Of a DNA stretch of 64,000 bases, positions 23,974-44,925 are shown in pieces; position 1 is the first letter of the stretch, and each line of letters begins with the position of its first letter. The stretch lies in assembly GCA_900315935.1 (NCBI GenBank), contig ONBB01000001.1, positions 62,001 to 126,000 on the forward strand, read 5' to 3'. The DNA is from an uncultured Bacteroidales bacterium. GTDB lineage: Bacteria > Bacteroidota > Bacteroidia > Bacteroidales > P3. The notes below the pieces were generated by a model. It did not search any database. It was not told the origin of the DNA and saw nothing but the letters and a program-made list of their open reading frames with translations. Both the position numbers and the translations under genes were made by a program.

Positions 23974-24450
23974 TTACAAAATATCAATACCATTGAATGC
24001 TTCATCCCAGAGCGATAAATCATCCTCGTCGGTAATATCGGGAAGTAGGTAATCTTCCGGATATATTTGGTCAATAACTGCGGGGTTTTCAGGAATCGCC
24101 GTCAATAATTTCTCATCTGATGCTTTAAGCCTTTTACGTATCTTTTTAAAGAATGCTACCTCGTTGTATTCGATGGATTTGTCCACTTCGATGGTCTGGA
24201 TGGCTATACTTACCAATTCACATTCTTCCTCCTCGGTCAATGCAGCAGTTTTTACCTCGTCAAGGTATCTTTTCAGGAATCTGTTGCCTTCACTCCGCAG
24301 TTGCGTCAGATAACCTGAAAGCAACTGTTGCAAATCCATTTCTTTGAACTGAGGAAGTTCTTTGATTTTCTCCACTTCTTCTGGCGCAATCTCGCCATCA
24401 CAGGCAATACAGCAAAAGGCTGTCTTTAAATATATTTCCTTTCTATCCAT
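23974..24450 (-). CDS. TerB-like domain protein
   Basis: A 158-residue acidic, all-helical protein. The first ~115 residues have the TerB/DjlA pattern of paired helices with a small acidic loop: AFCCIACDGEIAPEEVEKIKEL, then ALTEEEECELVSIAIQTIEVDKSIEYNEVAFFKKIRKRL. TerB domains occur in tellurite and phage-stress gene clusters and are thought to act at the membrane or as metal-sensing adaptors. The acidic tail ends NGIDIL. It is the last gene of the five-gene Hsp70 operon, 12 bp after the kinase-AAA gene. Confidence 0.72.
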   Translation of the reverse strand: MDRKEIYLKTAFCCIACDGEIAPEEVEKIKELPQFKEMDLQQLLSGYLTQLRSEGNRFLKRYLDEVKTAALTEEEECELVSIAIQTIEVDKSIEYNEVAFFKKIRKRLKASDEKLLTAIPENPAVIDQIYPEDYLLPDITDEDDLSLWDEAFNGIDIL

Positions 24451-24462
24451 AATGATTTGTGT

Positions 24463-26154
24463 TTATTTGAATCCAATACGTTTTTTCTCAGGTTCTTTTG
24501 GCTTTATTGATGATGGGTGAGTCTTGATGCTTTCATTCAATATCTCCATGGTTATCTTTTCGTTTCGACTCAATGCAAGTCGAGCGGCTTCATCAACAAG
24601 GTACCGAATATCCGATGATACATATCCGTCAGTCAGAGTAGATAGTTGTTCATAATCGATGCCGAAGTCTATATAACGATCTTTCAGGTACATCTCGAAC
24701 ATCTCGCGACGAGCCTCTGCATCGGGAGGGCCAACAAATATTTTCTTTTCCAAACGGCCGGTACGCAACATAGCCTCATCTATCTCGTCTGGCAGATTGG
24801 TGGCACCAATGACAAAAACACCTTTTTCTCCTGTACGATCCATCTGCGCCAACATTTCATTTACAGCGCTGCGGCTCATTTCGTGAGCATCGCTGTTTCG
24901 CTTTGGAAGCAGTTCGTTTATTTCGTCGATGAAGATAATAGTCGGTGCGTTTTCCTCCGCCTCCTTGAACATGGCAGCAATGTTTTCTTGTGTTGCATTA
25001 ACATAGCGACTTTTGAGGTCAGAGGGGGTACGCATAACGAAGTTGAAACCCACTTCCTCGGCCAGTTTCTTGGCAAAGAAAGTCTTTCCGCAACCAGGAG
25101 GACCATATAGCAACATACCGTTGGGCATGGATATGCCATAACGCTTATATTTTTCAGGCTCACGCAGCAGGTCAATCACATCACGCTGCAGTTGTGCTTT
25201 CAGTTCTCTCATTCCTGCCACATCCGACAGTCCGTTGCCGGTCTTTATGGTTTTGGCTTTCTTTCCCTGCTCTTTCTTTTGAGTGTTTGTCGTATTTACA
25301 GATACTTTTACCTCGCCCCGAATAGCCTTTGCCATCTCTTCTGCCGACTGAAAACGTTCTTTTGGGTCAACAGTAAGAGCTTTAGCAATTGCCTCTACCA
25401 TACCGTCAGGAGCAGCGATTCTGTTTAATGACATTACCTTTAATGGCTTCTCCCGTTCGCTTTGTAAACGATCTTCAAAATCGTCTCCATTCTTCACTTG
25501 CCACGGAAGTGTTCCGTACAGCAAGCGATAGGTCATCACGCCAACGGAAAACAAATCGCTCTGTGGTGAATAGATTCCATTCATTGCCTCTGGTGCAAGA
25601 TAATATGGCAACAATCCCTTCTTGTCGAACGCTCGTCGTCCGTTGCTCAGCCTACGAGCGTGACCAAAGTCTATTATCACCGCCTGTTTTGTGGTTGCAT
25701 CAAGCATAATGTTCTGCGCCGTCAGCTCATTGTGGATTATGGGGTCTGCTTGGGAATGCAGATATTGCAACCCGGCGAGTACATTGCATACCCATTCACG
25801 TACTTCGTAGGGATTGCTCCCCTCACGATTAATATTCTGTTCTAATGTTTCACCGCAAATAAAGTCACTTACCAAATAGGCCATTTGTCTTCCATCAAGC
25901 ATTATTTCTTGTTGCTCTACGAGGTGCATTACATTGGGATGTTTCAATCCCTTCATAATATCCAGTTCAATGACGTTATCGTCCTCGTCGAACTGCCTGC
26001 CGTTCAGCCTAGCAAGATCTATCAACTTTAGGAAATAGTTTCTTCCCGAGGCATCTTTTACACGATACGTCTCGGCATAGTCGCCCTGCTTGATAGGGAA
26101 AGCAACTGTATAGTCGCCTACTTTTTGTTGTTTAGAAAGTGTAAACATACTCAT
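24463..26154 (-). CDS. Protein kinase-like domain fused to AAA+ ATPase
   Basis: A 563-residue fusion. Residues ~10-280 form a eukaryotic-type kinase fold: Lys43 (FLKLIDL), Glu in VIELDIMKGLKHPNV, and IDFGHA at 161-166. The catalytic loop reads HNELTAQN (141-148): the usual catalytic Asp is Glu143 and the usual Lys is Ala/Thr, so activity is doubtful. A Lys/Thr linker follows. Residues ~310-560 are a classical AAA+ module: Walker A GPPGCGKT (351-358), Walker B IIFIDE (406-411), GATNLPDEID sensor and RTGRLEKK arginine finger. The C-terminus is KKRIGFK, like the tail of the AAA protein at 35114. It sits between the Hsp70 gene and the TerB gene. Confidence 0.88.
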   Translation of the reverse strand: MSMFTLSKQQKVGDYTVAFPIKQGDYAETYRVKDASGRNYFLKLIDLARLNGRQFDEDDNVIELDIMKGLKHPNVMHLVEQQEIMLDGRQMAYLVSDFICGETLEQNINREGSNPYEVREWVCNVLAGLQYLHSQADPIIHNELTAQNIMLDATTKQAVIIDFGHARRLSNGRRAFDKKGLLPYYLAPEAMNGIYSPQSDLFSVGVMTYRLLYGTLPWQVKNGDDFEDRLQSEREKPLKVMSLNRIAAPDGMVEAIAKALTVDPKERFQSAEEMAKAIRGEVKVSVNTTNTQKKEQGKKAKTIKTGNGLSDVAGMRELKAQLQRDVIDLLREPEKYKRYGISMPNGMLLYGPPGCGKTFFAKKLAEEVGFNFVMRTPSDLKSRYVNATQENIAAMFKEAEENAPTIIFIDEINELLPKRNSDAHEMSRSAVNEMLAQMDRTGEKGVFVIGATNLPDEIDEAMLRTGRLEKKIFVGPPDAEARREMFEMYLKDRYIDFGIDYEQLSTLTDGYVSSDIRYLVDEAARLALSRNEKITMEILNESIKTHPSSIKPKEPEKKRIGFK

Positions 26155-26255
26155 TTAAAATCAAAATATAGTCTCCCTAATAGCAATAGTACAAACACCG
26201 TTATCGTCAACTCCTTACAAACAAGTTATTCTTATAAATCATCTAACATATTATA

Positions 26256-28760
26256 CTACAGCTGAACCTTTTCCTGTTCCTCAATTGGTAACAAATCGAT
26301 TATTCGGACGCAAACTTGTCTCACCTCCTCCCAATCAGGATTGTTGTTCACCATCTCCATTCCCTGATTGAGAAGTTGTTTTGCTGTAGCAGCATTGCGC
26401 CACTGGTAGTGGCCAAACTGCTGCTGATGTTGCTGCAAAAAGCCCACAAGAACAGCAGGCAGTGCTATTTGAGTAACCAGTCTGCTTAAATCTTGGAGCA
26501 CTTCGTGAGCAGCTTTGACATCACGCATTCGAATGGTCTGGTCAACCACTCGTCTCATTTCAGCCACAGCAGCATCGTCGTGAAGCGACCAAGTCTCATT
26601 GTTCGCCCGTTCCAGTCGGTCAAATTCGTCACGCAATTCTGTTTCTACAGTTTCCCACTCATGATTTTTCTCAACCTTTTCTAAAGCAAGAGACACTCTA
26701 CGTAGGTCATCAAGCAAGTGCTGCATATCGTCATCTTTGCTGTGTTCATTTTCTTTCCTGCGGTCAAGGTCGACCATTTTTTCTTCAATCTCTGCTAACT
26801 CGCTTGGAGTAGCTGTTCTTTTGAGTGAATGCAACTTGGATTGAGCCTCGGCAAAGCGTCTGAGCCATTCCTTGTAACTCATAACACTACGACTATCTAC
26901 AACAATGTCTTTCTCTACCGTTTCTCCCAATTGAATAAAGAATACATCCAAATGATAGCCCTGAGAGTTGTCCACTTTGAGTGTTATGTCTATCTCGCTC
27001 CCTGCGGATACAACTGCTGGCACATCATCTCCAGTAATGACAATGTCTGTCACGTGGTCATTATGGATTGCACTGCTGCCTTCCGTAAACATTTCACCTA
27101 GATAAATTGGTATAATCAGACGGTCAGTCTCGTTGCCCGGATTGAGTTGGCGTGGTACTTTAAGTCCGTTTCTGATACCCACGGCAGGGAGTGACTGGTT
27201 TTTCTCCAAACCCTTAAGAGGTACAAACACATCTCTGTCCATCACTGCGTCGTGAGCCTCAATACCAATGTTGTATGGCAAAGGGGCACTATCAACCTGA
27301 CTTCCTTGTATAATGGTCAACTCGTTGGGGAAACAAGGCAGTTTGTTACCGATTTCATCACAGACAGCAATGGTGAAAGCATTGGCACGACCTTCCTTTA
27401 AAACACACTCCACGGCATCGCCTGTAGCAGTCAACGCTAGTTTTCCACTTGACCACGAACCGTCACCACTTGTCACCTCAAACATCAGGCTTTTGCCACT
27501 TATGCCTTTGCTCTCATTTGATAGTAGTTTTACAATCACGTATTCGCTTGGCAGAACAGATGTCGACTTATACCCTAACTCTAAAGCAACTTGTTGTTCT
27601 TCAGCCGATGCTTTCACATCGGCATCATATTCCTGCGTTGTGGCATAAAGTGCAGCACCACGAGCAACAGCGGTCATTGGGTCTATACTGGTATCTACAT
27701 TTGCCGTGATTTGTTCTTTCAACATCTGTCTCAAGACTGGCGAGTATGTGGGACCACCAACAAGAATCAATGAACTAAGGTCGCCACCCTTCAAATTGTT
27801 GCGTTTCAGCAACCCCTTGACAATATCCAAAGCCTTTTGGAATATTGGAGACAGGACTTGTTGCATCTGTTCTGCAGTAATAACCATATCCAACTCCAAT
27901 GGTTCGCCCTCATCATCCTCTCCAAATTCGTCCAGCGGTGACATAATGTCAACCGACGGCTTAAATGATAGCTGGTTTTTGACTTGTTCAGCATAGTATT
28001 TAACAGCATCGCGCAGAATCACGCGCTTGGTTGCATTTGCCATAATGCCATCAATGGCATAATTATCTTTCAAATAAGGTATAATTATCTCGTCAACGAT
28101 AGCAGAGTCAAGATTTTTGCCGCCAAGGTAGTTGTCGCCCTCGGTGTCTTTAACCTGCATAATACCGTCTTCCACTTGAAGCAGAGCAGCATCAAATGTT
28201 CCTCCGCCAAAGTCAAACACCAACCAATATCCATTCTTGTTGTCGGTGGTCAGTCCGTATGCCATCGAGGCTGCGATGGGTTCTTGCAGCAACGAGCAAT
28301 GATCTATGCCGGCCAGTTTGGCGGCACGCATTGTGGCTGCAATTTCAGGTGCCTTGAATTTGGCAGGAATGGTAATAACACAGGCATCGACAGTATCGTC
28401 GCCAATGAACGACTTCAGCGTTTTGAGCACTTCCGCCGACAATTCCTCGCTACTGTAGCTACGCTCCATATTGCTACTTGCATACTTTGTATCAAGTCCC
28501 ATAGTGCGTTTGAACTCAATGAAGACATTACTTGACCCGGTTTGCATTGTCTTGGTTGAACGAGCCTTGTCTTGCTTAAGATCATTCATTGCTGAGTCAC
28601 CAACACGGACCTGACGTTTCCGAGTAAAAGATACACACGATGGTAGAGTGTCTTTCAGGGTATCGGTCTTCTTGATGGTTGGCTCCCCATTCTCCATCTT
28701 GCAGATTGCGGAATTGGTGGTACCAAGGTCAATTCCATATTTCATTTTTAGCTTAGCCAT
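26256..28760 (-). CDS. Hsp70-family chaperone with long helical C-terminus
   Basis: An 834-residue DnaK relative. The actin-fold ATPase is complete: DLGTTNS at residues 11-17, VFDFGGGTFD in phosphate loop 2 and LVGGPTYSPVLR in the adenosine site. The substrate-binding domain diverges from DnaK, and a long charged helical tail (about 640-834) replaces the DnaK lid; it ends EKVQL and not EEVD. It is not the housekeeping DnaK. In the operon it follows the membrane coiled-coil gene by 11 bp; a 101-bp gap separates it from the kinase-AAA gene. A J-domain-like protein is encoded two genes upstream, giving it a likely dedicated co-chaperone. Confidence 0.9.
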   Translation of the reverse strand: MAKLKMKYGIDLGTTNSAICKMENGEPTIKKTDTLKDTLPSCVSFTRKRQVRVGDSAMNDLKQDKARSTKTMQTGSSNVFIEFKRTMGLDTKYASSNMERSYSSEELSAEVLKTLKSFIGDDTVDACVITIPAKFKAPEIAATMRAAKLAGIDHCSLLQEPIAASMAYGLTTDNKNGYWLVFDFGGGTFDAALLQVEDGIMQVKDTEGDNYLGGKNLDSAIVDEIIIPYLKDNYAIDGIMANATKRVILRDAVKYYAEQVKNQLSFKPSVDIMSPLDEFGEDDEGEPLELDMVITAEQMQQVLSPIFQKALDIVKGLLKRNNLKGGDLSSLILVGGPTYSPVLRQMLKEQITANVDTSIDPMTAVARGAALYATTQEYDADVKASAEEQQVALELGYKSTSVLPSEYVIVKLLSNESKGISGKSLMFEVTSGDGSWSSGKLALTATGDAVECVLKEGRANAFTIAVCDEIGNKLPCFPNELTIIQGSQVDSAPLPYNIGIEAHDAVMDRDVFVPLKGLEKNQSLPAVGIRNGLKVPRQLNPGNETDRLIIPIYLGEMFTEGSSAIHNDHVTDIVITGDDVPAVVSAGSEIDITLKVDNSQGYHLDVFFIQLGETVEKDIVVDSRSVMSYKEWLRRFAEAQSKLHSLKRTATPSELAEIEEKMVDLDRRKENEHSKDDDMQHLLDDLRRVSLALEKVEKNHEWETVETELRDEFDRLERANNETWSLHDDAAVAEMRRVVDQTIRMRDVKAAHEVLQDLSRLVTQIALPAVLVGFLQQHQQQFGHYQWRNAATAKQLLNQGMEMVNNNPDWEEVRQVCVRIIDLLPIEEQEKVQL

Positions 28761-28771
28761 ATATTTGTGTA

Positions 28772-29653
28772 TTATATGTTTTGACTTACGGTTATTTGTG
28801 CGGCTTGTATCATCTGTCCCTTATAATTTATTTGGGGCTTGGTTATTCCAGTAATAATTCGTTTGCCACGTTCAAGACTATCATCATCATTAAACGATGG
28901 CGACACTTTCATTCCCTCTACATAATCTTTTCCAAGCATATCCACCAGCTCATACCCATTGGCAAGAAGATTATCTTTCATCTGTTTGACACTCCTTGTT
29001 AAATGTTTATGACCTTTAATATTGCTATCCATACGATAGAGCGTCATTTCCATAAATGTAATACGGTCAGCCAAAGCTTTGACAAGGCTGTGGTCAGGCT
29101 CGCTTGTGGTTTGATTAGATTGTGGAGCATTCAATCCTTCGGAAATCTTTTTTAGTTCCCCGATTTCTTTGTCCATCTTCTCAACCATCTGACGGTTGAG
29201 GTCGTCAGCACGGGCACGAAGTAGTTCAATGTCATCGCCTTTCTTGGCAATAAGTTTGCGGAGGATGAAGTATGCTGCAACCAACAGCAAACAAATTGCT
29301 ACTGCAATCACTATACCCCATACTACAGACTTATGTTGGCGGGTACAGGTTTCCTGTACTGCCATTTCTGCGTCCGTCATACGCACCCCATAGCGTTCGT
29401 CAATAGAGTCCATCTGATTGTGAAGACCACCAACCTTTTTCTCAACTGTCTCACTAAGCAGATTTACCTTTTCGCTATTGCTCTCCACCTGTGTCGCAAG
29501 CTCGTGGGTTCTTTGCTCCAACTTGGTGAGTTGTTCCTGCAGGGCTTTGTTTTGCTGCTCAAGTGAGCAATTACGGATACTGTCTGTTGATTGTGCATAA
29601 ACAGATGTTTGCAATAAAAACAAAGCAATAATTAGATGTATTTTACTCCTCAT
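28772..29653 (-). CDS. Membrane coiled-coil protein with GrpE-like C-terminus
   Basis: A 293-residue protein. A signal peptide (residues 1-20, cut after VYA) leads to a periplasmic coiled coil (~30-105), one membrane helix (~110-131) and a cytoplasmic part. The cytoplasmic part has a helix (~140-165), a polar linker, another helix, and a final ~60 residues ([20 protein letters not shown] ... [20 protein letters not shown]) that look like the beta domain of GrpE, the nucleotide exchange factor of Hsp70. That similarity is my reading and needs a structure search. The gene overlaps the J-like gene by 11 bp and precedes the Hsp70 gene by 11 bp. Confidence 0.65.
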
Positions 29654-31358
29654 TTCTATAGATTTTTATAAAACTGTCAAGTGTTGTTCTTATAAAATTG
29701 TTTATTCGTTTTTTGTCTTTCAAATGTTCAACCCAAGTAGGTGAGTACTTATAATAGAATCTTACGAAAGCACGACCTATCGGATTCTTTTGCAGCACAT
29801 CGTCACGGAACCCTCTCAACACCATTACTTGTGGATGATTATAGTCACCATATACCATTGTGGCAATGTAGCATCCGCCACCATCACCACCTCCACTATT
29901 GCCACCTGTTGCAGTATTTAGAGTGTCGTATATATCCTTTAAAGTAGTTCTGTTGGGAAGATAACGGTTCTGACGGAAATCGTTTTCCATATCAAAACCA
30001 TCCATTATTCTAATAGCCTTCCAAGCATTATTTACTACAGGTTGTACATTTAATCTGATTATAGTGGCTTTTACTTGTGGACTTGCATTTTGAGAAGCAT
30101 GGATTAACAAGTTTTGATTATCGTTAACTTCCCCAATAATATTGCCCAAAGCCAAACCTACAACTTGTGTTGATGTTTTCAAATAGAAAGGATTGTCTTC
30201 CCCAAGTTTTTGTTTTATTGATTGCAAACTTTGTTTTGTTGCGTTTAGAAGATCCAGGGAACGATTAGTTCTGTCATTCTCGTGAGTTAATGAGATTGTT
30301 TTTTCTCCTGGATTTTTAAGGAATGACAAAATTGCATTCTGAACTATCTCCATCTCATTCTCTACCTCTGCTGGCGGCAGGTTCTCTTTCTTTTTGCGTA
30401 ATATGTCAACATTGTGTTGGATATGGTCGCGGGCCATCTTGCCAACGGCAATTTTGAGAGCGTACTCGCCAAGTTTCAAAGCATTCTCAATAACATCTCT
30501 GTTCTCTCCATCTATCTTGTTGAAATAGTTGATAGAGCATTGCAGTATCTGGTTGGCTAGTTTGTCTACCAAACGGCTGTAACGAGAATCATCGCTACCA
30601 ACCAATTTCTGTAACTGTATACGTACCTTATTGGTGTTATTTGCAAGCTTCTTGCCCGCTTCCAGCTGTGCTTCAGCATTATCTGTGCTGATAGCTTTAC
30701 AGGCAACAATCTCTTTTTCAATAATGTCAAGAGGCTTCTTTATTGCAATATTTCGAAGCTCGAATTCAATTATTTCCGAACCTCCAGGTAGCACTGTATC
30801 CTTCCCCCAATCTTGAAGGAGTGTAGACGCTTCTACCTCTTCTGTCAAAGTCTGGAGGTATAGTTTTATCAAGTCGGAAGCGCTCATCTCAAATGTCTGT
30901 CCTACAATAGCGTGACACATCTGGCTGTATAGACCGTTCGTTATGGAGTAGAAGTCAAGCAAAGCTTCTTCGTATTTACCAGCTTGCAATTCAAGTATAG
31001 ATCGGCAGAGCAAAGCCTCCCACGAATAACTTTTTGAAAAGAGTTCTAATGCTTTCTCGTTATTTCCTTGCAGCAAATGGTCGTATGCCAATTTACCCAT
31101 AGAATCAGAGGGTTGCGCAAACCAAAACAGCGCATGCCTGATTTTGTCTTGCGGAAGGTTGATATCGCGTTCAGAGGTTGCAACAGACTCTCTGCTGCGA
31201 TTGACAGGAGGCAAAATACTAGGCAAATCCAGCGGAAATACAACTTCTTTTCCTATGTCTAACAATCTCATCTTGCCTTTGTTGGCAGCAAGGTCTTTCG
31301 CACTGGCATTCACAGGTATGCCAAGCATTCGGAATGGGTTATGTTCTATCAGTTTCAT
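29643..31358 (-). CDS. Degenerate J-domain protein with CFI-box C-terminus
   Basis: A 571-residue protein. The N-terminus ([20 protein letters not shown] ...) begins like a J domain, but the HPD tripeptide is absent. A helical, TPR-like region follows ([29 protein letters not shown]), then a long helical body. After a Gly-rich linker ([11 protein letters not shown]) comes [20 protein letters not shown], the Cys-containing 'CFI-box' motif found at the C-terminus of many bacterial proteins. Start: ATG 31358 (MKLIEHNPF); an upstream in-frame extension passes through inverted repeats and looks non-coding. First gene of the Hsp70 operon and presumed J-protein partner of the Hsp70. Confidence 0.75.
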
Positions 31359-31600
31359 CGGGCGTGGAGTGTATAAAAATAGCGTGGAACGTTTACTTTG
31401 TCCGAACGCTAGGGTTTCCACGCCCTCCAAAATCAAACAAGTCATTCCACGCCGATGAACGGCGTTTCGTTGACCTATTCTCGATTTTGGCATCCCGAGC
31501 TGGGATTATTGTGGAAATTTAGCGTTCAAGAATAGCACGAATCGCTATTATATGTCTATGTCTTTATTTTTTTGTTATCTTACATGTCGTCACTTCATTT
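31359..31600 (-). promoter_or_regulatory. Long structured leader of the Hsp70 operon
   Basis: About 250 nt separate the promoter from the first start codon. In RNA order the leader carries GCGTGGAA (31452-31445), GGGCGTGGA (31425-31417), TTCCACGC (31389-31382) and TCCACGCCC (31368-31360). Either upstream strand can pair with either downstream strand, and the last ends one base before the start codon at 31358. Confidence 0.5.
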
Positions 31601-31642
31601 TATTTTTGCGGTTGCAAAAATACGCATTTTTTTCGATACCAA
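31601..31642 (-). promoter_or_regulatory. Promoter of the Hsp70 operon
   Basis: On the minus strand, TTGG (31642-31639) and TATTTTTG (31622-31615) are 16 bp apart. A second TATTTTTG lies on the plus strand at 31601-31608, making the palindrome TATTTTTGC-ggtt-GCAAAAATA. A similar ~45-bp sequence occurs at 46731-46780. Confidence 0.6.
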
Positions 31643-31966: not shown

Positions 31967-32950
31967 CTATGCCTTAAAAAACTCAGTGATAAACTTTTGC
32001 TTCTGTTTTTGTGACAGGCCGTTGTGCACGCGCAGCTTGGTCTTCAGTTCCGAGAAGTGTCCGTCGATGGCGTTTGTTGTGTTAGGCATACCGATGTCCA
32101 TATGGTCGAGATAGGTAAATAGGTATGGCAGATTCCGTTTCAGGCTCAAGTATGCCGACTTCAGTGGCTTGTGCTTATAGTGACTCCTGCCTGTTTCCTC
32201 GTCTGTCGTGCGTTCATTTAGGTAGCTCTCCCACTTCTCGTGCCATAGTCCAAGTGCGCCTTCAAATGATTCGCGGTCAGTCTTTGTGAGCATCAGGGAC
32301 AGTGAACGCAACTCCTTCCCGGGTTCTGTCTTCGGACGTTTTGTGAGGCGCGTGGTCACTATCTTCTGCTGGTGAAACTGGCACATCTGTATCGGTATGT
32401 CGGGAAAGGCGTTGAATAACCCGCGCCGTCCGTCGCACACTATCCCGAGTATTTCATACCCCCTGCTCTTAAGTTCCGCAATCCCTGCCGAATATTTCTC
32501 CACAGTCTCGTTGCCGACATTGTATTTCAGCAGGTTCTCGTTGGTGATGGCATCCTTGAACAGCATTGTGCCGTGTTCTCTTCCCCAATAAGTGGTATCC
32601 ATCAGCACAATCACCTTTCGCGGTTGCTTGTCCTGGAATGATGGCTGGTATCTCATCAGCCTCCGTTGCACCGTTTTGGCTGACACCCCGTGCGCGGCAC
32701 CTATCTCTGCATAAGTCTGCTTGCGAACAACATACTCTTCCCATAGTACCGAGTCATCCAGGCGCTCCCCTCCGTTAAATTGCCTCCCGCATTGCCAGCA
32801 TTTGTATCTCTGTACCCCGTTTACATGCCCGATTTTCTTTACTTTCTTGCATCCGCAGTGCGGACATTTTTTTTGTTCATGACCTTTGACTTTGTCAAAG
32901 TAACGATAAAATCACGCTTTCTCGTCGGTTCGACCATTAATTTTGTCCAT
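31967..32950 (-). pseudogene. IS256-type transposase (Zn-ribbon variant), interrupted
   Basis: Read from ATG 32950, the frame gives 12 codons, then a TGA (32912-32914), then continues open in the same frame to 31967. After the stop come a zinc ribbon (KCPHCGCKK ... YKCWQCGRQF), a helix-turn-helix (TYAEIGAAHGVSAKTVQRRL) and a DDE/MULE-type core (VIVLMDTTYWG, GIVCDGRRGLFNAF, MCQFHQ, NAIDGHFSELKTKLR). This matches the IS256 'variant Zn-binding' group as I remember it. The promoter box at 32983-32990 would drive it. The nonsense codon suggests a dead copy, unless translation restarts at an internal GTG. Confidence 0.8.
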
Positions 32951-32955
32951 TACGT

Positions 32956-33134
32956 CAGATTTTCCTTTCTTGATTCCGGTTGCAAAAATAGGCAATGTGT
33001 ATACCAATACGTGTCATACGTTGGGTGGGTGCAAAAAAAGTATCCAAATTTTCCCATTGATGGGAAATAATGGGAAAGGGCCTATGTATTCCCCTAGAGA
33101 ACCCCTAGGGAGTCCCTACCGTTCCCCTACCGTC
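32956..33134. repeat. Operon-junction repeat, left copy
   Basis: About 179 bp, roughly 93% identical by eye to 46813-46990. Contents from right to left: four 11-bp iterons (33087-33130), a hairpin (tttcccat/atgggaaa) followed on the minus strand by a T run, and a -7 box TATTTTTG (32990-32983). It holds the last codons of the WYL gene. Confidence 0.9.
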
Positions 33135-34042
33135 AGGCTGGGGAATAGGTCGTTTTCTTGATATTTTTCAACCATCTTTTGGGCCTCTTCGCGCATCTCG
33201 TCGCGGAGTGTCTCCGGCTTCAGCACCTCGGCGGTGCTGCCGAGGGAGAGAATTCGCTGGCGAAGGTCGAAGGTCGGGCGCACCCGCAAGGCAAAGATGG
33301 AGTATTCGTCGTTTCTGCGCAGCTCCATTTGGGAGCGGTGCAAGGGCAGGGAACGAAGGTAGTTGGCCTGGCGTGCATCCACTTTCAGCCAGATGCTCTC
33401 CACCTCACCGTCGCCGATGGTGATGCCGAATACCCCGTCGAACATCTCTTCAAGGTCAAAGCCGGGGTCGCGGCGGAAGGTCTCCTCCTTGATTTCAAGG
33501 TTGCTGACCCGGTCGAGGGCGAAGATGATGTGCGGCATCTCCGCCTTGAATCGCCCTATAAGGTACCACCGCCGCTCGTACATCTTGACGGCGTGGGGCT
33601 GGAAGTTGAAATAGTGGGTGGCGGTGTCGGCCCAATAGGGTTTGTAGTCGAACTCTACCAGGTGTTGCTCCTTCAGTGCCTGCAGTACAGCCGGGAGGTG
33701 CTCCGTGTTGGCGCTCTCGATGCTTATATATTGGGCCGTATCCCTGCTGTCGCTGACGATGCGGTTCACAGCGATGGAGTCCATAAGCCAGCGGCGGAAA
33801 TAGTCGTTGTCGCCGTTGTCGGCTATGTGGTAGCGCCAGTCAGCTCCGCATTCTATCTCGATGCCGAAAATCTCCTTCACCTCCTTGCGGTGGCGGTGGA
33901 AGGTGCGCCTGATGTATTTCTCGCCGTTGCTTACCTCGTCGTCGTGCTGATAGGCGTCGGAAATCTGGTTGAGCGTGAGGCCGGTGTCGCCAGCCCGCAT
34001 CAGGGTCTCCACCAGCCAGATGTATTTCTTCAGCGTTGTCAT
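33116..34042 (-). CDS. WYL-domain transcriptional regulator
   Basis: A 308-residue protein with an N-terminal winged-helix-like region (~1-70: GLTLNQISDAYQ ... RTFHRHRKEVKEIF), then a WYL domain (~130-200: QHLVEFDYKPYWADTATHYF, ERRWYLIGRF) and a C-terminal extension (WCX-like, to ~300). WYL proteins sense ligands, often nucleic-acid pieces, and regulate defence operons. Its start overlaps the RhuM-Fic stop by 4 bp (ATGA), so the two are translationally coupled and it may control that gene or the wider cluster. Its last codons lie inside the 179-bp junction repeat. Confidence 0.88.
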   Translation of the reverse strand: MTTLKKYIWLVETLMRAGDTGLTLNQISDAYQHDDEVSNGEKYIRRTFHRHRKEVKEIFGIEIECGADWRYHIADNGDNDYFRRWLMDSIAVNRIVSDSRDTAQYISIESANTEHLPAVLQALKEQHLVEFDYKPYWADTATHYFNFQPHAVKMYERRWYLIGRFKAEMPHIIFALDRVSNLEIKEETFRRDPGFDLEEMFDGVFGITIGDGEVESIWLKVDARQANYLRSLPLHRSQMELRRNDEYSIFALRVRPTFDLRQRILSLGSTAEVLKPETLRDEMREEAQKMVEKYQENDLFPSLTVGER

Positions 34043-35028
34043 GGGTTGTTCTTGTTGATCAGGTTGACCACCACCTTTACCATCACCTCCTTCTCCTCGG
34101 GGCGGCTCTCGGCAATCATCAGCGTGAGAGCCACAAGGGTGTTGTCGGCGATGCGCTTGCTGCCATCCTCGCGGTAGAGGATGCGGTTGTTGTTCAGGAA
34201 CCAGAGGAACAGCGTGGCGGCTATGCGTTTGTTGCCGTCGCTGAACGAGTGGTTCTTGGTAACGAGATAGAGCAGCATGGCGGCCTTCTCCTCGGTGCTG
34301 GGGTAGAGCTCCACGCCGTCGAAGGTCTGGTATATCTGTCCGATGGAGCTCTTGAACGACTCGTCTTTCTCGTTGCCGAAGAGGGCGCTCTCGCCGAAGC
34401 GTTCCTTCAGCGAGCGGATGGCCTGCATAGCGTTGTCATAGGTGGCATGGAAAGGGGCCTCGCTGGTTGTATCGTTGATGGTAAGCCGCTGGTAGTCGAA
34501 GCTGTCGAGGGTGTCGAGCGCATAGGTATAGTCGGTTACCACGTTGAAGAGCGCATGGGTCTCGTCGGTAGAGAGTAGTGGCTGGCTCTGTATCGTCCGC
34601 CCCAGCATACCCACCAGCTGCCGCAACTCGCCGATCTGCTCCTTGCGGATGCGCTCGTTGACGGCATAGCCCTTGACAAGATAGTCCTTTAAGACCTTGT
34701 TAGCCCATTGGCGGAACTGCGTACCACGCTGACTTTTCACTCGATAGCCGACGGAGATAATGACATCGAGGTTGTAAAGTGTAGTATAATATGTTTGGTC
34801 AGCATCAGTACCCATATGTGCAAATTTTGCACATGTGATATCTCTCGTCAATTCTTTTTCCTTGTAGACGTTGTTTATATGCCTGCCAATCACCGTTCTG
34901 TCCTTTTGGAACAATTCTGCCATCTGTGCCTGCGATAGCCAGACGGTATCCTTGTCCATTTTTACCTCCAGATTGGTCGCACCATCTGCAGTCTGATAGA
35001 TGATTATCTTGTCGTTGATGTTCTCCAT
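34039..35028 (-). CDS. RhuM-Fic/Doc fusion protein
   Basis: A 329-residue protein. Residues ~1-150 are the RhuM family (TVWLSQAQMAELFQKDRTVI, HINNVYKEKEL, YNLDVIISVGYRVKSQRGTQFRQWA). Residues ~200-329 are a Fic/Doc domain with the core NHSFSDGNKR (259-268), which matches HxFx(N/D)GNKR, so AMP-transfer or kinase-type toxin activity is possible. No obvious inhibitory (S/T)xxxE(G/N) helix was pinned down. Such RhuM-Fic fusions occur in defence and toxin-antitoxin regions. It overlaps the WYL regulator by 4 bp. Confidence 0.88.
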   Translation of the reverse strand: MENINDKIIIYQTADGATNLEVKMDKDTVWLSQAQMAELFQKDRTVIGRHINNVYKEKELTRDITCAKFAHMGTDADQTYYTTLYNLDVIISVGYRVKSQRGTQFRQWANKVLKDYLVKGYAVNERIRKEQIGELRQLVGMLGRTIQSQPLLSTDETHALFNVVTDYTYALDTLDSFDYQRLTINDTTSEAPFHATYDNAMQAIRSLKERFGESALFGNEKDESFKSSIGQIYQTFDGVELYPSTEEKAAMLLYLVTKNHSFSDGNKRIAATLFLWFLNNNRILYREDGSKRIADNTLVALTLMIAESRPEEKEVMVKVVVNLINKNNP

Positions 35029-35113: not shown

Positions 35114-36787
35114 TCAAAAGTTGAATCCTATTCGTTTGGTCGAGGTGTTGCTAATACACTCCGAGTCGCAATGCGAGGCCAAATTCTCGGCGGTGGGGAC
35201 GGTGTTGCCGTGCAGGATGGCGTCGATGGCGTAGTGGCGGGCGATGTTCTCTATCTGGCCGCCGCTGAAGTCGTAACGCTCGGCCAGTTTCTCCGCATCT
35301 GCAATGTCAAGCGTGGGCAGCATTTCTTTCCAGATGGCGGTGCGGGCTTCGACGGTGGGCTTGTCGAAACGTATCTTGTAGAGAAAGCGGCGCTCGAAGG
35401 CTTTGTCCATGTTCTGCGCGAGGTTGGTGGTGGCGATGAGTATGCCGTCGAGAGTTTCCATCTCTTGCAGGATAATATTCTGCAAGGAATTCTCCATCTT
35501 GTCCACCGCCCGCTCGGCGCCCTCCTGACGCCTGCCTATGATGGCGTCGGCCTCGTTGAACAGCAGTATGGGAGCGATGCTGCTTTCGCTGACACGCTGG
35601 CGGTAGGTGTCGAATAGCGCTTTGATGTTCTTCTCGCTCTCACCCACCCAGCAGCTCTTTAACTCAGCGATGTTCACCTGCATGATGTCGCGTCCCGTGC
35701 GGCGCGCCAACTGCATCACGGTCTCGGTCTTTCCAGTGCCAGGTACACCGTAGAAGAGACATGTGAACCCGCAACGGAACCCCTGCTCCTGCAGACGGGT
35801 ATGGATATCGCTGTAGTTCCTCTCGTCAAGCAGGCCAGCCAGTTCGTCGATGTTGTGGGTTATTTCCTTTGAATAGAATAGCGTGCGAGGTTTGATATCT
35901 GTGGTTTTAATCATGTTGCGGAGCGACTTGGAGGCTTCCAATGATGCGAGCTGCAGCTCGTCGAGCAGTTCACGCTTGGCCTTCATTGTGAGACGGAAAT
36001 AGTAGCGGTCACCCATGCCGTTACTGTTGCTGAACTCCACCAGTTTCATGTTTTGTAATTCGATCTCTCCTCTTTCCAGTTCCGATCTGATACTACGCAT
36101 CTCGCTTTTGCTGAACATACAATCAATATCATGAAAACCAACCATATCGTCGTTTTTGTTTACGAACAGATGGCAGAACATCATCAGCAGTATCAGGTCG
36201 TTGTGCATATATCTATATGGGCAGTATTTTTTCAATGCTTGAACAAATAATAAATGTTGGTTGCTTTCAAGCAACATGACAAACCGTTCACGTGCAGATT
36301 TGTAGTCCATTTCATCATCATCAACCATGTCGACTATTATGGCAAGTTCATCAAATAGCTCTCGGCAAGTCAGCCCAGACATTTTTCTAGGGGCATATAC
36401 TTCATCAACTTTAAAGGCATCAACCACCTCCAGAGGAACACGGTAGGAAACTCTATCGGTATTCCGTTTTCTGATAATCAGCCCACGATTGACCAGAACG
36501 TCTATGTCGTTGGTATAGCGGATAACACGTGTAGTACGGCAACCTGTTGCCTTAACGATGTCGCTTGCATAGATATTGCAGTCGTCGCTTTGGTCGATGA
36601 ACAAAGCCAACATCACGCTCTGCTCTTTCGTAAGATCAAGGCGCGTGGAAATATGTTTTATATAACGACTTGCCTTACGATAGAACTCCGGCGACAGCTG
36701 AGAATCTTTCGACAGATCTACGATGTTTTCTACTGCCGTAAGCAAGTCCAACTTGCTCCTACTTTGTTTTTTGCTTTCAGTTTCCAT
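35114..36787 (-). CDS. AAA+ ATPase with N-terminal helical/winged region
   Basis: A 557-residue protein. The N-terminal ~300 residues are helical, with a likely winged helix (EQSVMLALFIDQSDD ... GCRTTRVIRYTNDIDVLVNRG). The AAA+ module has Walker A GVPGTGKTE, a pore-type region, and a Walker B that reads ILLFNEADAI, with Asn where Asp is usual; the catalytic Glu remains. Sensor ATTNLAQNMD and arginine-finger-like RRFLYKIRF follow. The tail is TKRIGFNF, like the kinase-AAA tail. Start: ATG 36787, 25 nt after a strong -7 box. Function unknown; its neighbours are defence-type genes. Confidence 0.82.
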   Translation of the reverse strand: METESKKQSRSKLDLLTAVENIVDLSKDSQLSPEFYRKASRYIKHISTRLDLTKEQSVMLALFIDQSDDCNIYASDIVKATGCRTTRVIRYTNDIDVLVNRGLIIRKRNTDRVSYRVPLEVVDAFKVDEVYAPRKMSGLTCRELFDELAIIVDMVDDDEMDYKSARERFVMLLESNQHLLFVQALKKYCPYRYMHNDLILLMMFCHLFVNKNDDMVGFHDIDCMFSKSEMRSIRSELERGEIELQNMKLVEFSNSNGMGDRYYFRLTMKAKRELLDELQLASLEASKSLRNMIKTTDIKPRTLFYSKEITHNIDELAGLLDERNYSDIHTRLQEQGFRCGFTCLFYGVPGTGKTETVMQLARRTGRDIMQVNIAELKSCWVGESEKNIKALFDTYRQRVSESSIAPILLFNEADAIIGRRQEGAERAVDKMENSLQNIILQEMETLDGILIATTNLAQNMDKAFERRFLYKIRFDKPTVEARTAIWKEMLPTLDIADAEKLAERYDFSGGQIENIARHYAIDAILHGNTVPTAENLASHCDSECISNTSTKRIGFNF

Positions 36788-36815
36788 AACTAACTTCTTT
36801 TCTTGATTTCGACTG

Positions 36816-36854
36816 CAAAAATACAAAAAGGGTGTGTCAAATCACGACACACCC
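36816..36854 (-). terminator. Fused terminator-promoter module
   Basis: On the minus strand, gggtgtgtc and gacacaccc (36854-36846 and 36838-36830, 9-bp arms) are followed by CTTTTTG and directly by the -7 box TATTTTTG (36823-36816). It ends the PD-(D/E)XK transcript and starts the AAA transcript. Confidence 0.75.
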
Positions 36855-39163: not shown

Positions 39164-39679
39164 TTATTTTGAAATCCTGTCGCCGCAGAAGGCTTTTCGT
39201 TTGCACTTGGAACATCGTCGCCCTTGCCAGACGCTGTCGAGGTGGTCGGCGGCGGCATCGACCAATTGGGGCTCGTCGGTGAGGATGCCGGCCTCGAAGT
39301 TGCGGTTGTTGTCGCCTTTCATACCGATGCCGGCACCAGTGAGGTTGGCGGAGCCGATGTAGGCGGTGGCGCAGTCGAAAATCATTATCTTGAAATGCAC
39401 CCTTGGGCAGAGTCTCCGCTCCAAGCGGCTCCACAACTCAGGATATTTGTCGAAATCCTCGCGGAAGTTCTCACCTGGTTCTTTGGCGTGCAGCAGACGC
39501 ACATCGACACCCCGTTTCAGCAGCTTGTCGAGGATTGAGAGGAACGGCACAACATTCTTGCCGCTGCCGACATAGAGATCTTTGAGGTCGGCAGTACCAA
39601 TCCACAGGTCGTGCTTGACCTTCTCGCAACGCGAGAGGACTTCTGTGTAATGGTCCTTGTCTGCGATGTATTGTATCAT
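39164..39679 (-). CDS. Phospholipase D-family protein, copy 2
   Basis: A 171-residue near-copy of the protein at 22670. The active-site stretch VHFKIMIFDCATAYIGSANL and the C-terminal Cys cluster (CSKCKRKAFC) are intact. Start: ATG 39679 (MIQYIADKDH). An upstream in-frame extension was rejected because it reads through the zinc-ribbon gene in the wrong frame. It lies on the opposite strand to copy 1 and on the same strand as the broken copy 3, with the second DUF262 gene and the zinc-ribbon gene between copies 2 and 3. Dimeric nuclease activity is inferred. Confidence 0.85.
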   Translation of the reverse strand: MIQYIADKDHYTEVLSRCEKVKHDLWIGTADLKDLYVGSGKNVVPFLSILDKLLKRGVDVRLLHAKEPGENFREDFDKYPELWSRLERRLCPRVHFKIMIFDCATAYIGSANLTGAGIGMKGDNNRNFEAGILTDEPQLVDAAADHLDSVWQGRRCSKCKRKAFCGDRISK

Positions 39680-39680
39680 T

Positions 39681-40106
39681 CTACTGGCTGAGTTTGTTCC
39701 ACTGGTGAGAGCCTCCTTGGGAACAGCCCAAGGAAGAGGGGGGGCGCTCGTTGTTGATGGTGATGCCACATTTCCTGCACTGGTAGGTGGCATTGCCCAC
39801 ATGGCCAAGATGATTCCATTGATGAGAGCCTTTGGCGGGACATCCAAGAGTGGATGGATTACGTTTGCTCTCCAGCAAAGTTCCACACTTCTTGCAGTTA
39901 TAGTTCTCTTGTCATACTACCCCTAAGTTATACCATTGATGTGAGCCACCCGCTCGGCAGTTGAGGGCTGATGGTGTACGTTCGGATTTCACCAAGGTAG
40001 CACATTTGCAGCACTGGTAGTTCTTTAAATCTCCTGTTTTATCAAGGTTGATAATAAACCCCGGAAGAAAAACAATCAATATTATTGAAACCAAACGTCT
40101 TAACAT
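39681..40106 (-). pseudogene. Three-repeat zinc-ribbon protein with internal stop
   Basis: From ATG 40106 the frame reads a hydrophobic N-terminus (LVSIILIVFLPGFII, one membrane helix or signal), then three ~34-residue repeats of the form CxxC-x(12-15)-C-x(3)-GSHQW-xxL. Between repeats 1 and 2 there is an in-frame TGA at 39912-39914; repeats 2 and 3 continue in the same frame to 39681. Each repeat has three cysteines and one histidine, which fits a zinc site. Either the gene is inactivated by one base change, or a short one-repeat form is the product. It lies between the second DUF262 gene (4-bp gap) and PLD copy 2. Confidence 0.72.
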
Positions 40107-40110
40107 ATTT

Positions 40111-42480
40111 CTATAACGTATTTGGTTGTGGAATCTCTGACAGAAAGGCGTCGAGTTGCTCTTTTATAGTTACCAAATCAATAGAATTGCCGACACTGCA
40201 TTTATACCACCAATCATTATCCTCTTTTAATAGATTGTCTCCGCCGAGAAAATCCTTGTTCTCTTGGGTCACAGTTGTTCCCAAGGCCTTTCTTATGCCA
40301 CATTCTACAGACGATGGTTTCCCGTTTTCTTTTGTTGCTGGCCATTCTACACACGCCATATAGTTTCCTCGCTCAATACCAACACCAACCCACTGTCTTG
40401 CCCAATCTTGTTCGCGTTTTAGTTCGTAGTCATTATGGTCTGAAGCCGCAAAATGGATTATTGCATCGGGGTATATCTTCATCACTTCCTCAAACAACTC
40501 TTTTCTTTCCACAAGAGTGTCGGAAAGTATGGGCTGACAAACGAGCTCTTTTATTAATTCGAAAACCTTGTCATAAATTCTACAGAAACGAGCATATGTG
40601 ACGTTTGCAAATTTAATACTTGAAGCGGCATCATAAGTCACTTCATATCTCACCCTTTCCACTTCTTCATCATAATCCAATGCAACACGATTAGCATAAT
40701 ACTCGCTATAATCTTCACCGTCGTTTTTGCTACGATTAGATTCATACGATATTGCAGCAAAATTTCCTATGCTATCCAACCACACCTTGTCATACTCTCG
40801 GTAATCCCCTTGTTTTCTGTCAATACGTTTTCGTGCAACAATATGGTCAAAATCCCACGGTCGATTGTATTCTGCCCACATATCCTGCCTTGCAGGGTCA
40901 TAGTTGGGAAAATGAGTGTTGATGTATTCTCGTTCAGCATACAGAAGCATCTCTCTTGACTCCGTATGACCATTCCAGAATATCCTATCAAAGAACTCAC
41001 GTGCTGGTGCAGGAACACTATGCCACACTCTCCAGCTTGGACTTTCCCCAATATTGGGAACATATCCACGAACATCCGCCGGGCTGTATATATGCAAGAG
41101 ACTACAATTGTGCATTAACATGGAGATGCCCTTTTGGATGTTGTTTATGGTTATGCCATCCTTGCATCTCCGAAATATCTCCTGCACACATCCCTTTTTG
41201 TCATTGTTCGCGGAAAACCAGTGCAAACAAAATGCGAGTGCCCTGATTTGCGAGGCCGTTAATTCTGTAGGAGATTTAATGTTCTCATACGCAAAATACA
41301 TCAACAGCAAATACACATCTGGGGAATTTCTTGCAATGATTGTGCGTAATATGCTTGGAGTCCGATTTGCTCCCTCCCCATTAACGCCCAACCATTCATC
41401 TATTTGCTCAAGTATTTTTTCCAAATGGGCATTGTATAGATATGTAATTTTTTCTCTCTCGGCATCTTTCCTCGCATAACTACGGATTTGACGAATGCTT
41501 AGTTCATTTTTCAATGAGTCGTCCTCCTTGTCGGTCAAAGCCAAGCGGAATGCCAGCATAACAAGTTTCGATGGACTCATATATTTCTTTGCAAGCCTAT
41601 CGTTTATATCCTTAATAGTCGGCCAATATGCTTTGATGGCCGAATAATTCAAATCATCTCTTGAAATTGCCGTTCCTCCCGTATTCAGTCGCGTGAAAAG
41701 CACCTCAAGAGTTGTCTGTTCAACAGTATCCGTTTCAGATTCTGTCTCTGACTCCATCACCTCTTTGGGAAGATGATTACAATTGATGTAGTAATTGTCA
41801 AGAGCCACAATGCGAGGGAATAGAACCTCTTTCAGATAGCAACACGCCTTTTCATTAAAATCAATCTTCTTGCTATAGGCAAAATTTGTTTCCTTAAAAA
41901 TAGTTATCGTTTTATGCAAGAAAGCCTCTGCATCATTATTTGTTGTTTTTGATGCTTCCAACAAACACCATAATGGTATAGGACAGTTCGCTTCTATCGG
42001 CCAGGTTCCCGTCAATGAAAATTCACGATTATAAATATTCCCTTGAAGCTCAAATATATCTAACGATTTCCTTTTTTCTCTGGTGTTTAGGCGGCTGCAG
42101 TCATCATCGTTTTTGAATCCCCAAGGCTGTGGAATTGTTGTGGCTTTAATCCAAAACATTCTGGTGCTATTTTTTACAGAAGGTGGCACCAAATCTATCC
42201 AAAGTACTGCTCTGGCATCCTTGACCGTATTAAAGCCAATGCTTATCGCATTGTAACGCTGCTGTCCATCCATCAAATAGTATTTACCTTTCTGGCCTTG
42301 TTCAACAATATCAGACAGCATAAAAGACCCTATAGGGAACCCCCGAAGTATGGAGTCCCACAGAAGTTCTACTTGGCTCGGTTTCCACACAAGACCACGT
42401 TGTAATGCTGGTATTGTAACCTCTGAGTTATCAGCCGTCCAACCAGCAATTTCCCTAAGCGAATATATCTTGTTTTCCAT
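40111..42480 (-). CDS. DUF262 (GmrSD-like) protein 2
   Basis: A 789-residue protein. The N-terminal DUF262/ParB-like NTPase domain has IPALQRGLVWKPSQVELLWDS-type opening and the DGQQR motif at residues 71-75. The C-terminal region has an HNH-like core: WDFDHIVARKRID followed by SIGNFAAISYESNRSKND. DUF262 plus HNH is the layout of GmrS-GmrD type IV restriction systems and many stand-alone phage-defence proteins. The extreme C-terminus (~670-789) is an extra domain. Its start lies within the worn 3' end of PLD copy 3. Confidence 0.85.
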   Translation of the reverse strand: MENKIYSLREIAGWTADNSEVTIPALQRGLVWKPSQVELLWDSILRGFPIGSFMLSDIVEQGQKGKYYLMDGQQRYNAISIGFNTVKDARAVLWIDLVPPSVKNSTRMFWIKATTIPQPWGFKNDDDCSRLNTREKRKSLDIFELQGNIYNREFSLTGTWPIEANCPIPLWCLLEASKTTNNDAEAFLHKTITIFKETNFAYSKKIDFNEKACCYLKEVLFPRIVALDNYYINCNHLPKEVMESETESETDTVEQTTLEVLFTRLNTGGTAISRDDLNYSAIKAYWPTIKDINDRLAKKYMSPSKLVMLAFRLALTDKEDDSLKNELSIRQIRSYARKDAEREKITYLYNAHLEKILEQIDEWLGVNGEGANRTPSILRTIIARNSPDVYLLLMYFAYENIKSPTELTASQIRALAFCLHWFSANNDKKGCVQEIFRRCKDGITINNIQKGISMLMHNCSLLHIYSPADVRGYVPNIGESPSWRVWHSVPAPAREFFDRIFWNGHTESREMLLYAEREYINTHFPNYDPARQDMWAEYNRPWDFDHIVARKRIDRKQGDYREYDKVWLDSIGNFAAISYESNRSKNDGEDYSEYYANRVALDYDEEVERVRYEVTYDAASSIKFANVTYARFCRIYDKVFELIKELVCQPILSDTLVERKELFEEVMKIYPDAIIHFAASDHNDYELKREQDWARQWVGVGIERGNYMACVEWPATKENGKPSSVECGIRKALGTTVTQENKDFLGGDNLLKEDNDWWYKCSVGNSIDLVTIKEQLDAFLSEIPQPNTL

Positions 42481-42489
42481 AAATCCTTT

Positions 42490-42978
42490 TTATTGGCTTT
42501 TCGTTTGCACTTGGCACATCGTCGGCCTTGCCATACGCTGTCGAGGTGGTCGGCGGCGGCATCGACCAATTGGGGCTCGTCGGTGAGGATTCCGGCCTTG
42601 AAGTTGCGGTTGTTGTCGCCTTTCATGCCGATGCCGACACCAGTGAGGTTGGCGGAACCGATGTAGGCGGTGGCGCAGTCGAATATCATTATCTTGAAAT
42701 GCACCCGCGGACAAAGCCTCCGTTCCAACCTGCTCCACAAGCCAGGATACTTGTCGAAGTCTTCTCGAAAGTTCTCTCCCGGTTCTTTGGCGTGCAGCAG
42801 ACGCACATCGACGCCACGTTTCAGCAACTTGTCGAGGATTGAGAGGAACGGAACCACATTCTTGCCGCTGCCAACATATAGATTCTTCAAGTCGGCGGTA
42901 CCAATCCACAGGTCGTGCTTCACCTTTTCGTATAGTGAGAGGACCTTTGTGTTCCTTGTCTGCGATATATTGTATCAT
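42490..42978 (-). pseudogene. Phospholipase D-family gene, copy 3, degraded
   Basis: The start ATG at 42978 (MIQYIADKEH) is kept, but compared with copy 2 about 5 bp are missing around 42940, which shifts the frame. The body then reads DLWIGTADLKNLYVGSGKN to CAKCKRKA in the other frame. About 20 bp that encode the final FCGDRISK are also deleted, so the third Cys of the cluster is lost. The active-site block is still intact. It sits 9 bp after the first DUF262 gene and abuts the second one. Confidence 0.82.
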
Positions 42979-42987
42979 AAAAGATGT

Positions 42988-44913: not shown

Positions 44914-44925
44914 AATTCTTTATTG

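Follow-up and report, generated by a model that had tools for sequence, protein, structure and literature searches.

A conserved, mobile five-gene operon encoding an Hsp70, a predicted membrane GrpE-fold protein, and an AAA+ protein with a putative ClpP-docking tail

This analysis concerns a five-gene operon in a 64,000-nucleotide stretch of DNA (hereafter the window; G000:C8:62001-126000) from the 2.29-Mb genome of an uncultured Bacteroidales bacterium. The operon lies on the minus strand at positions 23974 to 31358 of the window and, by the list of open reading frames (ORFs), encodes in order a J-like protein (JL), a GrpE-like membrane protein, a divergent Hsp70, a fusion of a kinase-like domain to an AAA+ motor (kinase-AAA), and a TerB-like protein. 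Counted from the TerB-like end, the genes are spaced by 12, 101, and 11 bp, followed by an 11-bp overlap, and both coordinates and spacing agree with an earlier note on this DNA, which had described five minus-strand ORFs separated by gaps of 11 to 12 bp or overlaps, with one gap of 101 bp. The start of the first gene had to be moved. The ORF as called spans 29643 to 31493, but homologues place the true start at an internal ATG at 31358, which gives a protein of 571 aa, the same length as its Haliscomenobacter counterpart. The five-gene set is a real, conserved, and portable module that very probably forms a chaperone/unfoldase machine, and we propose, with a probability of roughly one in two, that it acts as a mobile, membrane-gated module in which an Hsp70 feeds an AAA+ protease.

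The conservation of the set is clear from a collection of genomes covering 84,980 species, which was queried with a six-locus alignment of the C-terminal domain of the coiled-coil, GrpE-like protein. The best 80 of the 124 relatives found through this domain were analyzed, with all five families called by profiles. All five families occur on one strand and in the order JL, GrpE-like, Hsp70, kinase-AAA, TerB at 47 of the 80 loci, not all of them independent (three rows of the query alignment recur as L028, L030, and L032, and L033 and L035 are near copies). Among the others, 18 are incomplete in a way that a contig end may explain, 14 are incomplete inside the contig, and 1 has the last two genes swapped. 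With the full ordered set at 47 of the 80 loci, the association exceeds chance, and the conserved gene neighborhood that the earlier note expected of a real system is present. A variant was seen at five loci (L066, L068, L070, L071, and L076), with a short GrpE-like gene of 171 aa, an Hsp70, and, where upstream sequence exists, JL-like genes; no kinase-AAA or TerB gene was found in the sequence examined there. The presence of the module is patchy, with 6 of 395 genomes in a sample of the phylum and 16 of 393 in a sample of the order, the window's own genome being counted in both. Three of the five other phylum genomes (G202, G071, and G405) hold all five genes in order, a fourth (G265) holds four of them with a contig end near, and the stretch from the fifth (G275) has a GrpE-like gene and a distant AAA+ gene. 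Because it is rare although spread over many lineages, such a module would be easily missed in model strains.

The settings in which relatives occur point to mobility. Plasmid pHALHY02 of Haliscomenobacter hydrossis carries the same five genes adjoining brxL and pglZ, both BREX genes, and plasmids of Aeromonas and Shewanella carry a relative with GrpE-like, Hsp70, and AAA+ genes directly after TnsD/TnsE (Tn7-like) genes, while a relative in Polaromonas lies near Zorya genes. A search of plasmids with the Hsp70 returned 247 records; in 7 of them, at least 80% of the query is covered at a single site. Among the 80 loci, members titled outside the Bacteroidota and sister groups are uncultured assemblies, with the exception of Aliidiomarina sp. 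B3213. Relatives on viral contigs were also sought, and the kinase-AAA patterns matched four stretches, none of them a relative. The nearest named relative of the window Hsp70 among those aligned, at 76% identity, belongs to a Bacteroidales bin recovered from the omasum of water deer. In a tree of 60 Hsp70s, many of whose rows are metagenome bins, a test of the labels gave no significance for Bacteroidota (values as low arose in 189 of 500 shuffles), and the tree does not prove transfer. The plasmids and the adjoining Tn7-like genes would also fit a mobile element with a selfish or addictive role in place of host defense; we regard this as very improbable, given that the loci also lie on contigs as large as 783 kb from many named lineages and that no antitoxin-like pair was recognized in the operon.

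The Hsp70 (26256 to 28760, minus strand; 834 aa) combines a canonical ATPase domain with an unmatched C-terminal half. The Pfam HSP70 match (6.7e-66) is confined to residues 9 to 382, and the ATPase residues D11, T14, K84, E160, D183, T188, and D190, which we match to the numbering of Escherichia coli DnaK, are invariant in all 60 aligned members. When the profile built from these 60 members was compared with the PDB, the best stretches ended at or before position 406 (best 60 of 131 rows), and the C-terminal half accordingly appears, by sequence, to match no solved Hsp70 among the PDB matches listed (the same best 60 of 131). At one locus, a second, short Hsp70-like gene of 506 aa (L072:13631-15151) lies between the kinase-AAA gene and an X gene, the name given here to accessory genes that occupy the Hsp70 to kinase-AAA gap in many relatives.

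The gene upstream of the Hsp70 (28772 to 29653, minus strand; 293 aa) encodes a protein with a signal-peptide-like N terminus, a predicted periplasmic coiled coil, a transmembrane (TM) helix near residues 113 to 131, and a cytosolic GrpE-like domain at about residues 185 to 293. A TM segment is predicted in all 62 aligned members, and 56 of them have a signal-peptide-like hydrophobic N terminus. In the AlphaFold model of the protein (pLDDT 86.5, pTM 0.50), one long helix is accompanied by two short ones and a small beta domain, and in a Foldseek search of the PDB, the 13 best matches were all GrpE chains, with a best E value of 2.5e-5 and seven matches at or below 0.001. Whole-chain TM-scores against GrpE chains are low (0.17 to 0.27, query-normalized, with an rmsd of 18 to 27 Å), which we put down to the long helix. 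The GrpE Pfam model matches 11 of the 62 members, weakly (best 0.0016). Profile comparison by hhalign of the Bacteroidota branch with canonical GrpE failed (0.5, with controls at 0.2 to 1.0); that of the proteobacterial branch gave 56.4 with the same control range. On proteobacterial plasmids, the related domain is a free protein of 114 to 123 aa encoded just before the Hsp70, and the window-type profile matched four of these free domains at 90.8. The GrpE-like identity is therefore well supported at the level of the modeled fold, as had been read from the end of the protein in the earlier note, and the predicted topology would hold the GrpE-like part in the membrane with the coiled coil outside. 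The proposal that the machine is tethered to the membrane and brings its own co-chaperones finds support in the same predictions.

JL (29643 to 31358, minus strand) has a J-like N terminus, a helical TPR/solenoid body, and a tail that matches the NCBIfam model CFI_box_CTERM (4.1e-24), so that the CFI box recognized at the outset is real. A search of the open-access literature for "CFI-box-CTERM" found no paper. The structure model is all helical (pLDDT 92.1), and the body carries a TPR-like signal; with Foldseek, weak solenoid matches alone appeared among the 50 listed (E of 6e-3 or worse). The N terminus resembles helices I and II of J-domains at an hhalign probability of 73.7 over 24 columns, and other segments scored between 0.1 and 0.6. 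The HPD motif is missing from all 49 aligned members, a pattern of the form F-P/D-x-D is common in the J-like region, and DnaJ is not among the families matched by JL members (best 25 of 91 families). The description of JL as J-domain-like thus stands for helices I and II and fails for the HPD, and a true J-domain was accordingly retained in part only. The tails vary, with a TM segment in 31 of the 49, a CFI box in 14, and other endings in 4, as judged by pattern and hydropathy. True J-domain genes lie directly after TerB at L083 and one small ORF further on at L090, and degenerate J-domain genes are found downstream at L092. At two loci (L029:5718-7748 and L030:829-2865), the next gene upstream of JL, on the same strand, encodes a TPR protein with a retropepsin-like protease.

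The kinase-AAA protein (24463 to 26154, minus strand; 563 aa) consists of a pseudokinase-like domain at about residues 8 to 285, an AAA+ unfoldase domain at about 308 to 540, a linker, and a C-terminal tail. Pfam recognizes both domains (Pkinase, 1.5e-34; AAA, 4e-39), which upholds the fusion described in the earlier note. The motor is intact, as the Walker A Lys, Walker B Glu, arginine finger, and pore-loop aromatic residue are each present in all 53 aligned members. The kinase half is another matter. The position of the catalytic Asp is occupied by Glu in 29 members, the window among them, and by Asp in 8, Asn in 7, Gly in 5, Ala in 3, and Arg in 1, and 8 of the 53 retain all of the canonical residues (Lys, catalytic Asp, Asn, and DFG Asp). 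A fully active kinase is rejected for most members on this count, and the residues suggest that the domain is mostly a pseudokinase, which corrects the kinase label of the original description.

Following a variable linker, the fusion ends in xG[FY] in 53 of 53 aligned members and in exactly [LIV]G[FL] in 50, the window protein ending in RIGFK. The exceptions are MGF (L045), FGF (L073), and IGY (L039). Outside the alignment, L033, L038, and L040 retain an [LIV]G[FL] tail, and L075 is broken. The tail is also found in proteobacterial plasmid AAA+ proteins (four of four read) and in AAA+ relatives at L009 and L012, where neither a kinase nor an Hsp70 operon is present in the stretches read. A second AAA+ protein of the window (35114 to 36826, minus strand), which scores against IetA at 2.5e-28, ends in KRIGFNF. 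Relatives of it occur in 46 of 295 genomes of the order, its own included, and 21 of 24 relatives carry the tail, with AGF, MGF, or an IGF further from the end in the others. None of 20 FtsH controls has the tail. As read from these alignments, the conserved [IV]GF-type C-terminal tail is the new element of this analysis. Another AAA+ relative with an IGF tail (L027:5730-9974) lies near two genes of the opposite strand, one TPR-like and one read by eye as tubulin/FtsZ-like.

A motif of the form (L/I/V)-G-(F/L) is described in PMC8745299 as the one that binds the H-pocket of ClpP and by which ClpX/ClpA-type Clp ATPases dock. At one locus, that of Candidatus Cacconaster scatequi (L039), the operon extends further on the same strand, first with another JL and a gene for a small TM protein and then with ClpP (Pfam CLP_protease, 1.3e-77); the same genome has another ClpP, between ORFs read by eye as trigger factor and ClpX. 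A search of 13 genomes with one or more genes of the set, 7 of them with the complete ordered five, found ClpP in every one. Proteins like HslV or the 20S proteasome were found in 4 of these 13, and HslV was set aside as the dock, since neither the window's genome nor 9 of the 13 genomes searched gave a match. Docking of the kinase-AAA ring on ClpP through its tail is a putative interaction, and we hold the case for it to be evenly balanced. The operon might instead encode a membrane-local Hsp70/AAA+ disaggregase that works without proteolysis and, under stress, repairs inner-membrane or periplasm-bound proteins or pulls them out, with the tail docking on another component, such as the TPR-like body of JL. 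The layout of an Hsp70 with an AAA+ protein is that of the DnaK-ClpB disaggregase, the TPR-like signal in JL would supply the dock, and accessory genes at the loci include lipoprotein-like, TM, and TPR-retropepsin proteins. Against this, AAA+ proteins from other gene contexts also have the tail (the family of the 35114 gene, L009, and L012), which argues for a common outside partner, and the patchy distribution (6 of 395 genomes) and the plasmid and Tn7-like settings are unlike those of housekeeping proteostasis. On this balance, we consider a disaggregase unlikely.

The last gene (23974 to 24450, minus strand; 158 aa) encodes a TerB-like protein, which stands last of the five at 47 of the 80 loci. 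The Pfam TerB match is below threshold (16.1 bits against a cut-off of 24.4; E of 0.014), and a profile of 51 members gave weak PDB matches to 2h5n (9e-4), which is a hypothetical protein, and to the tellurite resistance protein 2ou3 (0.13). The 101-bp gap between the Hsp70 and kinase-AAA genes (26155 to 26255, minus strand) is the position that holds the variable X genes in many relatives, where they differ in sequence and number. Those of L028, L029, L031, L034, L039, and L056 apparently form one family of CpXC-type zinc proteins with a C-terminal TM segment, the CpXC domain being recognized at 5e-11 in the protein of L028. The variation of the X genes, together with that of the JL tails (TM 31, CFI box 14, and other 4 of 49), could indicate abortive infection or toxin control, in which the machine would hold a variable effector, either the JL tail or an X product, inactive and free it upon invasion. 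Chaperone thresholding has been put forward in print for conflict systems (PMC7159879). Yet no recognized nuclease or toxin domain was found in six X proteins (Pfam, E of 0.01), and the window operon has merely the 101-bp gap at the X position, and we judge this explanation to be somewhat less likely still than a disaggregase.

The genes around the loci speak to the setting in which the module works. We compared 112 of 235 eligible flanking ORFs, from 43 of 45 loci, with the PADLOC models at a threshold of 1e-20, and, as a control, 117 of 134 ORFs from 15 stretches elsewhere in ten genomes carrying genes of the set. The flanking ORFs matched 64 models, including GajA, pAgo, AbiLi, ThsB, and SoFic (two proteins; 25 of the 64 listed), and the control ORFs matched 11, judged to be housekeeping lookalikes; these counts are of families and not of proteins, and the flank and control samples are not matched genome by genome. 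A defense setting is thus supported by the neighbors, and a role in defense, which the setting suggests, is in our view evenly poised.

A comparison with known systems brings out what is shared and what is particular to this operon. With PADLOC 2.0.0 (E of 0.01), there was no match for the Hsp70 or JL; the fusion drew kinase- and AAA-type matches (among 25 of 40 listed), and the coiled-coil and TerB-like proteins drew weak matches to LmuB (8.1e-6), ZorA (0.0019), and PtuA (0.0081). No description of this five-gene set was found among the papers listed from the open-access literature, which takes in few subscription papers or preprints and for which several listings showed the top of longer lists. 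In both sources, then, the set matched no described system, as the earlier note, which knew no named system with these parts, had anticipated. The nearest likeness is the DnaK-DnaJ-GrpE(-ClpB) system, with an Hsp70 whose ATPase residues are intact, a GrpE-fold partner, a J-like partner, and an AAA+ motor. Canonical DnaJ and GrpE are encoded separately in the window's genome. Unlike its counterparts there, the GrpE domain of the operon is built into a membrane protein with a predicted outside coiled coil, the J-like protein lacks the HPD, the AAA+ domain is FtsH/Cdc48-like with a kinase-like domain and is not a ClpB, and the C-terminal half of the Hsp70 is unmatched. ClpXP and ClpAP share an AAA+ motor with the (L/I/V)-G-(F/L) motif, and a ClpP gene in one operon, but the motor described here has the motif as a C-terminal tail after a linker in place of an internal loop, and a kinase-like N-terminal domain. 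IetA, of the IetAS system, has profiles against which the AAA+ domain scores, though at 99.8 bits against an NCBIfam cut-off of 510. IetS is the serine-protease partner of IetA, and no serine-protease partner of that kind was found among the neighbors scanned with Pfam.

Hsp70, GrpE, and DnaJ parts also occur in the GAP1-N2 GTPase conflict systems (Kaur et al. 2020, PMC7159879), which are predicted, GTPase-centered systems whose Hsp70/GrpE theme has been reported from actinobacteria and firmicutes; the combination of kinase-AAA and TerB is not among the parts in the available text of that paper, and unlike GAP1-N2, the window showed no GTPase core gene in a Pfam scan of 19 of its genes. CnuD of type III CoCoNuT systems is likewise an Hsp70-like ATPase in a restriction/defense setting, which, according to PMC11090510, carries degenerate Walker A-like motifs and acts together with McrBC homologs, whereas the ATPase residues of the operon Hsp70 are intact and the Pfam scan found no McrB or McrC homolog among the 19 window genes. 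For bNACHT25 (PMC12169576), a chaperone of the host takes part in phage sensing; there a single NLR-related protein works with DnaJ, and here there is a whole dedicated Hsp70 set.

The components recognized by sequence or structure prediction, namely an Hsp70, a membrane GrpE-fold protein, a JL scaffold that ends in a membrane segment or a CFI box in most aligned members, an AAA+ motor, and a TerB-like partner, suggest a plausible order of events for the membrane-gated module. The outside coiled coil would sense an envelope or invasion event and thereby alter how the attached GrpE domain drives nucleotide exchange on the Hsp70. At the membrane, JL would deliver a client to the Hsp70, which would pass it to the pseudokinase-gated AAA+ ring, and the C-terminal [IV]GF tails would plug the ring into ClpP, in most cases presumably that of the host and at L039 possibly that of the operon itself. 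Because the ring would plug into ClpP, the client would be destroyed and not refolded. The likely setting for such a process would be defense against phages or other invaders. The conserved set and the intact ATPases support the chaperone/unfoldase machine proposed in the earlier note; the kinase-like domain that it took for a regulator is mostly degenerate.

A number of observations count against this model. In PMC8745299, the published motif lies in an internal loop and not at the C terminus, and a linear IGF peptide is reported to have very little activity. The ClpP gene within the operon occurs at 1 of the 80 loci, and the tail of that locus, L039, is IGY and not IGF. The suggestion that a ClpP gene is a general neighbor of the operon was rejected, as the family was matched by 2 of the 112 flanking ORFs and control stretch L148 also has a ClpP; ClpP is not shown to be enriched near the operon, with ClpP-family genes in both flank and control samples. 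The tail is absent from kinase-AAA proteins at three loci. In two of them (L048:12876-15164 and L052:4636-6924), both of 762 aa, it is replaced by a C-terminal extension that, read by eye, is GNAT-like, and the third (L157, in genome G265) ends without any such motif. Further, of the 14 loci that lack parts internally, some keep JL, GrpE, and Hsp70 alone, which indicates that the AAA+ step is not obligatory, and a stretch from genome G016 has JL, kinase-AAA, and TerB genes with no Hsp70 or GrpE-like gene. The missing HPD of JL, the failed alignment of the Bacteroidota GrpE-like branch, and the unmatched sampling of flanks and controls belong to the same side of the account.

If the model is correct, it would have implications beyond this operon. 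The tail is common to at least three AAA+ lineages in defense-type islands, which could then be effector proteases that use a host peptidase. A membrane-spanning nucleotide exchange factor would represent a novel coupling of the bacterial exterior to the Hsp70 cycle. Should the tails dock on ClpP, a short tail motif would have uncovered a new set of ClpP partners and defense islands would be seen to recruit the degradation machine of the host. We tentatively suggest, while thinking it somewhat more probable that the full chain does not hold, a new class of immune machine that runs from a membrane GrpE through Hsp70 and a pseudokinase-gated AAA+ ring to ClpP, with the tail marking a hidden family of ClpP-dependent effector proteases.

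Counts of sigma-70-type promoters and terminators (22 and 8) are near those of shuffled sequence (18.1, SD 4.4, and 7.0, SD 2.2). In the remainder of the window, just upstream of the operon, on the minus strand at 31967 to 32686, is an IS256-type transposase of the variant Zn-binding type, which matches its model from position 61 onward and is possibly truncated at its 5' end. Further along on the same strand, just before the 35114 AAA+ gene, the region from 33116 to 35028 encodes a WYL/WCX regulator and a RhuM-Fic protein that matches PDC-S23 (6.1e-142). A defense-type stretch on the minus strand at 39164 to 46107 holds a PLD-like protein, two GmrSD-type proteins, one of them without a match to the C-terminal domain, and a weak SLATT/DUF1003 match. 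Lastly, a minus-strand gene at 48328 to 60039 encodes a protein of 3903 aa with CARDB, beta-helix, and Por_Secre_tail matches, likely a giant protein secreted by the type IX system.

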